Below, piece after piece: positions 17,314-33,037 of a stretch of 33,152 nucleotides of DNA. The first letter of the stretch is position 1, and each line of letters opens with the position of its first letter. The stretch is taken from assembly GCA_017396825.1 (NCBI GenBank), contig JAFQKR010000066.1, positions 1-33,152 on the forward strand, in the 5' to 3' direction. The position numbers were made by a program, and so were the translations under genes. Source of the DNA: Clostridia bacterium. Lineage in GTDB: Bacteria; Bacillota; Clostridia; Oscillospirales; CAG-382. The notes beneath the pieces were generated by a model. It made no database searches and was not told the origin of the DNA. It was given only the letters and a program-made list of their open reading frames with translations.

Positions 17314-18561
17314 TTACGAACCGTCTACACGGCTTTTAGCCATCGGCAAGGAAAGTCCCGACTGGGAAAAACTCATGTCGGTTTTGCATATCAACGCGGG
17401 CAGTATAGCATTTTTCCCAAAACGCCTTCTTATGCCGTCTATGGTCTTGTCAAGAGCCTTTTTCTTTTCAAGCCTTCTCTGGTCGGTAAACAGATCGGTT
17501 TGCTGAGGAAGGGTGCTGTCCTCAAGATTTATGGCAGTAACCGTCAAAGAACGCAAAGGCTCGTTTATGCCTCCCTTTTCCAAAAACATACGGTAAGCGG
17601 TATCTGCTATAACACCCGAATTATCCGTTGCCATATTAAGCTTACACTGATGGTTTGTGATTTTAAGTCTTTTGTCTCTCAAGGAAAGGCTTACACCAAG
17701 ACAGCGTAAGCGATGTCTGCGTAGTTTTTCGCCTATGTCCTGACTGAGGGCGGTTATAAGCCTTTTCACTTCTTCGTTGGTAGTAAGGTCGTGGGGCGGG
17801 GTAGTGCCGTGACCTACGCTTTTTACGGGCGGCGCTTCTTTTTCCGTGATTACAGGCGCAAAGTCAAAGCCGTTGGCAAAGGCCCAAAGGGTTTCACCGC
17901 TTTTGCCGAATAAGTCTTTTAAAAAACGTTTATCGGCAGATGCCAATTGACCTATGGTGTATATACCGTGTTTGTTAAGTATACTTTTCGTGGAACGGCC
18001 TACGCCCAATAACGCTTCCGCAGGTAGCCCAAACAGTTGATTTTTAAACCCCGTTTTGGTTATTACCGTAGTACCGTTTGGCTTCTTAAGGTCTGATCCA
18101 AGCTTTGCAAAGACTTTGTTAAAGGAAACGCCTACGCTTACTGTTATGCCAAGTTCTTTTTTTACCCTTGCTCTTATCATATCTGCGGCAAGAGCACCGT
18201 CCTCGTATTTTTTTATGGCGCTGCTTACGTCCAGCCAACATTCATCCATACCAAAGGGCTCTATCCTGTCAGAAAAATCCGCATATATTTTTCTTAAACC
18301 GTCTGAATAATCCGCATACGTGTTATAATGAGGTCTTACTATGCAAAGGTCGGGACAGCGTTTTTTTGCGTCTCCCACGGTCATGCCGGTGATTATACCC
18401 GCCTTTTTCGCCTTTTCGCTTTTTGCAAGCACTATACCGTGCCTTTCCTCCACCGCGCCGCACACAGCCACCGGCTTGCCGCTAAGACCGGGGTCAATAG
18501 CCATTTCCACCGAGGCGAAAAAGCTGTTAGCATCGGAGTGTAAAATTATTCTCTCTTCCAT
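17314..18561 (-). CDS. dinB: DNA polymerase IV (Y-family translesion polymerase)
   Basis: A 415-residue error-prone polymerase that copies past DNA lesions. Seen: HSDANSFFASVE with metal ligand Asp10, the catalytic pair Asp106-Glu107 in GMDECWLDVS, and the SVGVSFNKVFAKLGSDLKKPNG block, followed by the thumb helix-hairpin-helix (GVGRSTKSILNKHGI) and little-finger domain. A QTDLF motif near 355-360 matches the beta-clamp binding consensus. The ATG at 18561 is chosen because GGAGGAG lies 5 bases upstream; a longer frame starting at 18633 would run through the promoter and LexA boxes. It is under LexA control by sequence. No terminator follows. Confidence 0.95.
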   Translation of the reverse strand: MEERIILHSDANSFFASVEMAIDPGLSGKPVAVCGAVEERHGIVLAKSEKAKKAGIITGMTVGDAKKRCPDLCIVRPHYNTYADYSDGLRKIYADFSDRIEPFGMDECWLDVSSAIKKYEDGALAADMIRARVKKELGITVSVGVSFNKVFAKLGSDLKKPNGTTVITKTGFKNQLFGLPAEALLGVGRSTKSILNKHGIYTIGQLASADKRFLKDLFGKSGETLWAFANGFDFAPVITEKEAPPVKSVGHGTTPPHDLTTNEEVKRLITALSQDIGEKLRRHRLRCLGVSLSLRDKRLKITNHQCKLNMATDNSGVIADTAYRMFLEKGGINEPLRSLTVTAINLEDSTLPQQTDLFTDQRRLEKKKALDKTIDGIRRRFGKNAILPALICKTDMSFSQSGLSLPMAKSRVDGS

Positions 18562-18580: not shown

Positions 18581-18593
18581 GAACGTTTGTTCG
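18581..18593 (-). promoter_or_regulatory. LexA (SOS) box 1 of dinB
   Basis: Minus-strand CGAACAAACGTTC matches the Gram-positive SOS box CGAAC-N4-GTTCG in all but the last position. It lies in the dinB 5' leader, just downstream of the predicted transcription start, where LexA would block initiation or clearance. Confidence 0.85.
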
Positions 18594-18603
18594 ACTGGTG
18601 CTT

Positions 18604-18633
18604 ATTGTAACACATCGAACAAACGTTTGTCAA
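18604..18633 (-). promoter_or_regulatory. dinB promoter
   Basis: TTGACA (18633-18628) and TACAAT (18609-18604) on the minus strand with an 18-base spacer. LexA box 2 fills most of the spacer, so repressor and RNA polymerase would compete. Confidence 0.8.
18616..18629 (-). promoter_or_regulatory. LexA (SOS) box 2 of dinB, in the promoter spacer
   Basis: CGAACAAACGTTTG on the plus strand: the left half-site is perfect, the right half-site has TTTG in place of TTCG. It is 35 bases from box 1 (start to start), about three and a third helical turns. Confidence 0.75.
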
Positions 18634-18639
18634 GAGGGG

Positions 18640-18666
18640 GAAGAAAAAAGCCGCTTTAGCGACTTT
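18640..18666 (-). terminator. Minus-strand terminator upstream of dinB
   Basis: On the minus strand AAAAGTCGCT / AGCGGCTTTT forms a 10-bp stem (one G-U pair) with an AA loop and a TTTTTTCTTCC tail just before the dinB promoter. The same GTCGCTAAAGCGGC core recurs at 18907-18928. It would insulate dinB from transcripts coming from the aquaporin side. Confidence 0.75.
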
Positions 18667-18813
18667 TCAGACTGTAGACAAAGTCTACAGTCTGACTCAG
18701 AGTGAGAGAAACGAAGCTGTTTTTTACGAAAAACAAGCGTCGGCGTAGTGACCTACGGTAGCGAAGTTTTTCGTAAAAGTACCCTGAATATACTAAATAT
18801 AACCATTGATATC

Positions 18814-18850
18814 AAAAATGCCTCCCGCTACGGCAGCGAGAGGCGTTTTT
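18814..18850. terminator. Bidirectional terminator-like hairpin within the repeat mosaic
   Basis: AAAAA-TGCCTC-CCGCT / AGCG-A-GAGGC-GTTTTT with a five-base ACGGC loop, flanked by A and T runs; one mismatched pair near the middle. Confidence 0.7.
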
Positions 18851-18906
18851 GTTTTGTTGATTCTTTTTTCTCAGGGTACGTAAAGAGCGAGTTTGTCTTC
18901 GCTCTG

Positions 18907-18928
18907 AAAGGCCGCTTTAGCGACCTTT
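18907..18928 (-). terminator. Hairpin after the aquaporin gene
   Basis: AAAGGTCGCT / AGCGGCCTTT on the minus strand with an AA loop lies 14 bases past the aquaporin stop. The tail (CAGAGCG) is not T-rich, so it may be weak or serve RNA stability. Confidence 0.5.
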
Positions 18929-18942
18929 CTGTTTCTTGGCGT

Positions 18943-19608
18943 TTATTTAACTTCTTTCTTGCCTGCAAGGAACTTGTAAACGATAGCGGCAAGGGCGCCG
19001 CCAACGAGAGGGGCAACTATGAATACCCAAACGTTTGCAAGAGCGTCGCCACCTACCAAAAGAGCGGGACCGAAGCTTCTTGCAGGGTTAACGGAAGTGC
19101 CTGTGAAGGAGATGCCTAGGATGTGAACAAGGGTGAGGGAAAGACCTATAACGATACCTGCTACGGAACCGTTGCTTACCTTAGATGTTACGCCTAAAAT
19201 CGCAAACACGAATACGAAGGTAAGAATTATTTCGATAACTATCGACTTTGCAACATCGCCTTCAAAAAGAGCGTTTGTGCCAAGTCCGCTATCCTTGCCT
19301 ACAAATGCCATAAGGGCAGCAGCGCCGGCGATGGCTCCTGCGAACTGAGAAACCACGTAACCGATAAAATCTTTTACCGTAAGACTGCCGTTTATAAGCA
19401 TTGCGATGGAAACTGCGGGATTGATGTGGCAACCGGAAACGTTACCAACGGAGTAAGCCATGGCAACGATAACCAAGCCAAAGGACAAAGCGGTCATAAA
19501 ATAGCCGCCTTCGGTATCACAGCCGACTACTGCAGCGGTACCGCACGCAAAGAAAACCAATACAAACGTACCGATAAACTCTGCAAGGTATTTTTTGATA
19601 GATTCCAT
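18943..19608 (-). CDS. aqpZ: Aquaporin (MIP family, AqpZ-like)
   Basis: A 221-residue six-helix channel for water. Both NPA boxes are intact: HINPAVS (NPA at 63-65) and SVNPARSFGPAL (174-176), the Arg after the second box being part of the selectivity filter. The lack of the Asp insertion after the second NPA box (it is followed by ARSFGP) favours a water channel over a glycerol facilitator. The ATG at 19608 is chosen because AGGAGG lies 5 bases upstream. It follows trkH by 50 bases on the same strand with no terminator between, so joint transcription with the potassium system is likely. Confidence 0.92.
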   Translation of the reverse strand: MESIKKYLAEFIGTFVLVFFACGTAAVVGCDTEGGYFMTALSFGLVIVAMAYSVGNVSGCHINPAVSIAMLINGSLTVKDFIGYVVSQFAGAIAGAAALMAFVGKDSGLGTNALFEGDVAKSIVIEIILTFVFVFAILGVTSKVSNGSVAGIVIGLSLTLVHILGISFTGTSVNPARSFGPALLVGGDALANVWVFIVAPLVGGALAAIVYKFLAGKKEVK

Positions 19609-19658
19609 AAAAGCCTCCTGTAAACGTATATTTCTACCCATAAGGGCAACGGAACAAA

Positions 19659-32629: not shown

Positions 32630-32647
32630 GCCCCGTAGTTGTACCCC

Positions 32648-32755
32648 GTAGGGGCGATTCACGAATCGCCCGTTACAAAAGGAGTTATGCCCAACCATCA
32701 ATAGAAACGCCGTCTTTACGCGTTAAGTAACGGGTCATTCATGAATGACCCCTAC
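32648..32755. repeat. MITE-like element with hairpin-forming terminal inverted repeats
   Basis: Two 29-base ends face each other: left 32648-32676 and right 32727-32755. Read outward-in, both follow GTAGGGG-nn-ATTCA-n-GAAT-nn-CCCGTTAC. Each end is itself a palindrome: left pairs GGGCGATTC with GAATCGCCC, right pairs GGGTCATTC with GAATGACCC. The two bases that differ between ends are changed on both sides of the stem, keeping it paired. The 50-base interior has no supported gene. Such GTAGGGG hairpins recur as small intergenic repeats in many genomes. Confidence 0.7.
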
Positions 32756-33037
32756 AATATAATTGTGAGCTCACGTTACAGACGGCTGCGCTTTTCGGCT
32801 TGGCGAGCCCCTCGCGGTGAAAATGTGCAAACGGTTTACCGTGGGGGCGATTCACTTTTCGCCCGCACCGCAACGCCCCGCACCCACCACCTCGGCGTAA
32901 AATTTCTCGCAACCGTTTTACACCGATGAAATGTAAAAATCCGCCTATCCTTAAACCGCTTTAAGCCGCAAACTAGGCAAAACCACCAAAAACCCACGCC
33001 CACGTTTATGCCAAATATAAAAATGTAATAATTTGTA
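32756..33037. other. Non-coding stretch between the repeat element and the right-edge promoter
   Basis: No ORF with a ribosome binding site is seen on either strand. The part at 32770-32900 is more GC-rich than its flanks and holds a third hairpin related to the terminal repeats (32841-32868). The remainder is plain AT-rich spacer with short A and T runs. A 10-bp palindrome GTGAGCTCAC lies at 32765-32774. Confidence 0.5.
32841..32868. repeat. Third GGGCGATTC-type hairpin
   Basis: GTGGGGGCGA / TCGCCCGCAC forms a 10-position stem with one G-G mismatch around an eight-base loop. The GGGGCGATTCAC core matches the left end of the nearby element, suggesting a decayed or solo copy. Confidence 0.55.

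Follow-up and report, generated by a model that had tools for sequence, protein, structure and literature searches.

A hairpin-dense segment at positions 18642-18930 of the window (by which we mean the whole stretch of 33,152 nucleotides that was analysed), lying between an aquaporin-like and a dinB-like gene, raises the question of what so much structure is for. We found that both strands of the segment fold far beyond chance (+ strand z = -7.9, - strand z = -12.1; for each, 0 of 100 shuffles folded as well). A preliminary description had counted six hairpins, two perfect 13-bp stems, a long-range pair and a direct repeat at both ends, with no gene, and had proposed either stacked mobile repeats or a structured RNA. 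Both 13-bp stems are present (18667-18679/18683-18695 and 18722-18734/18766-18778), the six hairpins can be counted as two copies of a flanking hairpin, P1, P2, an inner hairpin (18820-18844) and a right-end hairpin (18884-18905, with arms 18884-18890/18899-18905), and the long-range pair is the stem P3 of Table 1. The segment indeed has no gene of its own: it contains no ORF of at least 80 aa, and a 123-aa ORF at 18748-19119 (+) extends into the aquaporin gene on the opposite strand. The direct repeat is real and had been given as too short, its two copies being 23 nt long; their two differences fall on stem partners, A-T in one copy against G-C in the other, so that both fold.

The segment turns out to be a single copy of a mobile element, small and without genes, that occurs in gut Clostridia. 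The suggestion of mobile repeats was therefore right in kind and wrong in number, since the segment holds a single element, and the direct repeat flanking it is a target hairpin that was duplicated. Because the direct repeat overlaps the ends of the element, these can be placed only to within 1-2 bases.

Table 1. Coordinates of the element, its parts, its neighbouring genes and related arrays, with evidence for the element, its parts and the genes
Feature	Position	Strand	Evidence
Mobile element, TCAG...CTGA, 241 bp, non-coding	18667-18907	+	profile match, model positions 1-243; 19-copy alignment; second near-full copy in genome
Left target-hairpin copy AAAAGCCGCTTTAGCGACTTTTC	18646-18668	.	direct repeat, 21/23 identical; T run after it on - strand
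Right target-hairpin copy AAAGGCCGCTTTAGCGACCTTTC	18907-18929	.	direct repeat, 21/23 identical
P1, 13-bp hairpin, left end, holds left terminal repeat	18667-18695	+	inverted-repeat search; consensus fold; covariation
P0, 5' strand; partner is the right end, about 18886-18906; closes the core	18698-18717	+	consensus fold; helices 3-5
P2, long hairpin, conserved internal loop, apical CGTAG/CTACG stem	18722-18778	+	helices 6-8, 100% of cells paired
P3, long-range stem 18779-18787/18871-18879	18779-18879	+	helix 9, 5/6 pairs changed on both sides
P4, inner hairpin of terminator type, with T run	18820-18851	+	scan detected it on - strand; two alignments
Right end with right terminal repeat (reverse complement TCAGAGCGAAGACAAACTC)	18882-18907	+	sequence; copy alignment; end pattern
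Y-family DNA polymerase (dinB-like) gene	likelier start ATG at 18561	-	Pfam IMS
Major-intrinsic-protein (aquaporin-like) gene	18943-19641	-	Pfam MIP
Tandem arrays	L183 5035-5404, L155 3758-4176, L185 3304-3738; also L137, L149, L114, L115

Copies of the element and their fold

Upon searching the genome that the window comes from (1.63 Mb in 99 contigs, 87% complete), we detected a second near-full copy, 89% identical, at C42:14169-14415 and half a copy, 79% identical, at C10:10204-10318, besides some short and weak matches, so the check for further copies proposed in the preliminary description came out positive. Within the family, element matches (E <= 0.001) occur in 17 of 63 genomes, comprising the window's own genome (the only one of seven in its genus), 13 of the 24 genomes of genus g2, two of g4 and one of g10, with up to 12 scored places per genome in some relatives. 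In the GTDB genome collection a pattern for the core matches 93 stretches, and the 80 listed records among them are all metagenome-assembled Clostridia, many from the ruminant gut. The same pattern has no match in viral contigs, one element copy searched in plasmids and phages gave none, and the exact right-end string finds none in the genome collection. A profile built from 19 copies gives 183 hits in the collected loci, or 127 without duplicates. Pairwise comparison in three genomes shows that many copies are 94-100% identical to one at another site, others having diverged further, to about 0.8-0.87. Full copies span TCAG to CTGA and carry imperfect terminal inverted repeats (TCAGnnYGnAGACAAA); the pattern for these repeats hits 101 sites in 24 genomes against 0 for a control pattern read backwards, with chance hits in coding-like DNA at 8 of the 21 loci read.

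Next, we derived a consensus fold from the 19 copies. RNAalifold returns 52 pairs, which form P1, P0 (the start of the core paired with the right end), P2 and the long-range P3 around the variable inner P4, whose sequence is not conserved among copies in either of two alignments. Across these helices 97.3% of cells pair, compared with 33-47% in slid versions. Changes on both sides are seen in 24 of the 52 pairs and on each of five measures 0 of 500 shuffles came up to the real alignment, although the pair counts are not probabilities because the structure came from the same related sequences. This covariation and the copies in the genome contradict the outcome that had been set against a functional reading, namely a single-copy segment whose pairing is not conserved. 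Furthermore, the wobbles on the + strand are strongly uneven, with 49 G-U against 2 A-C; two conserved positions (columns 40/261 and 74/99) account for 29 of the 49 G-U, and the remainder still stands at 20 against 2. A cruciform kept on both strands should not show such a bias, and therefore selection appears to hold one strand folded, in the form of RNA or single-stranded DNA. The suggestion of a structured RNA is thus partly right as well, since for the conserved, covarying and strand-biased interior either a structured RNA or a folded single-stranded DNA is likely. Rfam at gathering score has 0 matches in the window and 0 in seven further loci, and at a relaxed threshold gives 20 matches (best E-value 0.029), none of which attains its gathering score. 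We regard the covarying, strand-biased fold as a candidate RNA family that is without a match in Rfam 15.

Separately, a hairpin-like repeat, GGGGACCCCGAAAAT...TTTTTGGGG, lies in or beside the element copies of loci L172, L110, L109 and L076, and in L172 it splits P2.

Insertion duplicates a whole terminator hairpin

A terminator-type hairpin adjoins each end of the element, forming a direct repeat across it and differing from site to site. Among 30 full-length copies, two stop at contig ends, leaving 28 that are testable, and in 26 of these the direct repeats, 21-34 nt long, are the whole hairpin. Twelve of the 26 repeats are exact and the weakest matches at 17 of 22 positions; in 26/26 the element end is 1-2 bases away from a hairpin foot, and repeat length tracks hairpin span (Spearman 0.66). 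Junctions show the same arrangement, a hairpin foot being found at 27 of 29 intact right junctions (129 of 1260 control positions) and at 35 of 38 intact left junctions (84 of 740 control positions). One of the 26, L147, has an AT-rich hairpin that fails the stricter junction test, and two copies, L136 and L177, are exceptions without hairpin duplication. Mismatches between the two hairpin copies amount to 32 positions in 14 copies, of which 12 are in the loop, 6 are compensatory, 6 are one-sided but still paired and 8 break a pair, some of these 8 being register errors.

We then examined places without the element, by comparing the flanks of 12 sites with 24 genomes and reading nine candidate places. 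Four are orthologous and element-free (that of L138 in G023, and those of L132, L178 and L125 in G020), and the hairpin is single in each. The first has nearly identical flanks, and there AAACGGAACGTTTTTCGCGTTCCGTTT occurs a single time in the genome lacking the element but flanks the element left and right in the genome that carries it. It follows from the single hairpin at the four empty sites that insertion duplicated it, which does not by itself show the enzyme. The site of L131 holds 436 nt of other DNA in G023, and the matches of L138 in G020, G018 and G009 and of L054 in G021 are one-sided only. L170 and L107 form a filled and an empty pair that is uninformative on duplication because their hairpins differ. 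In regard to the window's own copy, the aquaporin gene has matches in five of the six other genomes of the genus; reading by eye the 900 bases downstream of it in these five genomes, we saw no dinB, and consequently no empty site can be demonstrated for this copy. The element inserts at terminator-type hairpins and duplicates the entire hairpin, giving the order hairpin, element, hairpin.

Two copies have unusual surroundings. In L136 (1333-1576) a full-length copy sits between both arms of one palindrome, as if in the loop of a hairpin, and in L153 (7119-7356, the same as the L032 copy) the flanking loops are inverted (CAAAAG to one side, CTTTTG to the other), which looks like a flip of the loop between the arms.

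Mechanism of insertion and its alternatives

With moderate confidence, we favour the reading that the element is a small non-autonomous, MITE-like DNA transposon that targets the hairpin of intrinsic terminators. The palindrome would extrude as a cruciform, or become single-stranded during replication, upon which a transposase acting on the terminal repeats would join the 3' ends of the element at the 5' foot of each stem-loop, and repair of the gaps would leave a whole stem-loop on each side. The folded + strand, as RNA or single-stranded DNA, may aid its spread, and both neighbouring genes would keep a terminator, making insertion nearly harmless. A crude ORF call shows one or both adjacent genes reading towards the element in 25 of 26 full-length copies, and since the hairpin is duplicated and P4 is carried along, both neighbours should retain a terminator.

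The closest parallel is IS1272 of the IS1182 family, which, in the part of PMC5678879 available to us, picks stem-loops by structure, replaces them and leaves no target duplication. The element is alike in that its target is a stem-loop chosen by structure and not by sequence, its hairpins differing by site, and in having terminal repeats of about 16 bp, whereas IS1272 has a transposase and replaces the stem-loop, and the element is gene-less and duplicates it. The model given there includes a hypothetical branch (pathway b) in which the entire stem-loop would be duplicated if joining took place at the 5' feet; the regular product of the element is what that branch predicts, which is our reason for favouring DNA transposition onto a cruciform terminator. 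We do not claim membership of the IS1182 group, and say only that the element seems to act like a stem-loop-targeting insertion. Within the accessible text of PMC5678879, the sole paper we found on stem-loop-targeting insertion, duplication of the whole stem-loop is only hypothetical, and here it is regular and accompanied by empty sites. The copies also share the features of prokaryotic MITEs as far as the available portion of PMC10969869 describes them: they are short, non-coding, multicopy and intergenic, with imperfect terminal inverted repeats, a target site duplication and an expected structured transcript. They differ from these in duplicating as their target an entire terminator hairpin, the length of which varies, and in having no known parent element.

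Turning to the enzyme, we searched for six families in the draft genomes of g2, 24 in total and 13 with the element. RVT_1 occurs in six of the 24 genomes and four of the 13, Y1_Tnp in five and one, rve in four and one, and Cas1 in two and none, while DDE_Tnp_1 and DDE_Tnp_1_6 occur in one each, both in G026, a genome without element matches, and in 0 of the 13. None of the six families was found in nine of the 13 element-bearing genomes, including G013 (99% complete), G010 (97%) and G027 (91%). Draft assemblies often lose multi-copy insertion sequences, and the absence of the enzyme is therefore weakly supported. No gene-bearing autonomous partner was found in the draft genomes by the end pattern or by a scan for duplicated hairpins in 216 loci and the window (1.02 Mb), L047 apart; what the scan returned were elements, tandem arrays, the CRISPR repeats of L215 and L216, and a small number of pairs without explanation. 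In L047 (1482-2763) the hairpin that accompanies a right end recurs at a distance of 1.24 kb; the two small ORFs in between match no Pfam family, and the locus is possibly a longer relative or a rearranged remnant. L039 was considered as a longer element and rejected, being a truncated copy beside ordinary ORFs. Against the favoured DNA transposon stand the lack of a transposase tied to the element, the failure to find a long gene-bearing relative, the want of a demonstrable empty site for the window's own copy, the two copies without duplication, the fact that IS1272 leaves none in the available text of PMC5678879, and one left-truncated copy, L071, which is not easily the product of a two-ended DNA transposon.

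That copy is the best single argument for a SINE-like retroelement, in which target-primed reverse transcription, starting from nicks flanking the hairpin, would write the folded + strand RNA into the terminator: L071 lacks model positions 1-90, yet has hairpin repeats on both sides. Such an origin would also suit the strand-biased fold and the frequent loss of the left end, which is not intact in 35 of 64 copies with a right end and flank, 20 of the 35 keeping the hairpin of the right junction. We nevertheless judge it unlikely, as RVT_1 is found in four of the 13 element-bearing g2 genomes, with G013, G010 and G027 not among them, as the element has terminal inverted repeats, and as two young copies without a left end, L145 and L179, have lost the left hairpin too, which fits a later deletion. 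Group IIC introns insert beside intrinsic terminators, but Rfam reports no intron fold here, RVT_1 was not detected in nine of the 13 genomes and the hairpin is duplicated. A different enzyme might give the same product, a structure-specific recombinase or a Cas1-like integrase cutting palindromes at both edges, and to this we assign a small but appreciable chance. It would account for the duplicated palindrome, which varies in length and is cut where its edges lie, and Cas1 duplicates CRISPR repeats, likewise a palindromic unit duplicated at its edges; the element, however, uses any terminator hairpin, and Cas1, one of the six families searched, is found in none of the element-bearing g2 genomes.

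Vertical inheritance of a structured RNA gene that has a terminator of its own, with the doubling of the hairpin as a secondary event, would explain the covariation, the core that L117 and L106 (in two genomes) keep between the same genes despite different flanking hairpins, and the tandem arrays of a related core, spaced by about 180-225 bp, that are without P1 and without flanking hairpin duplication. It is contradicted for full-length copies by the single-hairpin empty sites and by the 94-100% identical copies at different sites, although some copies without P1 could still fit it, and overall we regard it as improbable. The least probable account, to which we give hardly any weight, is that of REP-type palindromic repeats moved by a Y1 (RAYT-like) transposase: the copies are intergenic, palindrome-rich and several in number, but Y1_Tnp occurs in a single element-bearing genome of g2, and to our knowledge Y1 transposition leaves no target duplication, which we count against it.

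As a bolder reading, to which we give a low probability, the element might belong to a class in which its own folded strand, as RNA or single-stranded DNA, joins in insertion; a structure-specific enzyme beyond the searched transposase, reverse-transcriptase and Cas1 families would cut the cruciform of the terminator at the 5' foot of either stem-loop, and every insertion would thereby rebuild a terminator on each side. The pattern shows how an element can insert between genes without terminator cost, the order hairpin, element, hairpin provides a sequence tag for finding others, and the missing enzyme becomes a testable question.

Other palindromes of the window

Outside the segment, before dinB, there is a third perfect 13-bp inverted repeat (18582-18594/18615-18627). 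Two palindromes at 18581-18592 and 18617-18628 (GAACGTTTGTTC; GAACAAACGTTT, one base off GAAC-N4-GTTC) overlap a sigma-70-like promoter there; they resemble LexA/SOS boxes, and from these motifs the dinB-like polymerase is likely under SOS control. Additionally, another palindrome, GGGCGATTC..GAATCGCCC, recurs at 32646-32672 and 32839-32865 of the window, in L144 (1379-3254) and in L183 (4460-4897), and may represent a separate family of dispersed repeats.
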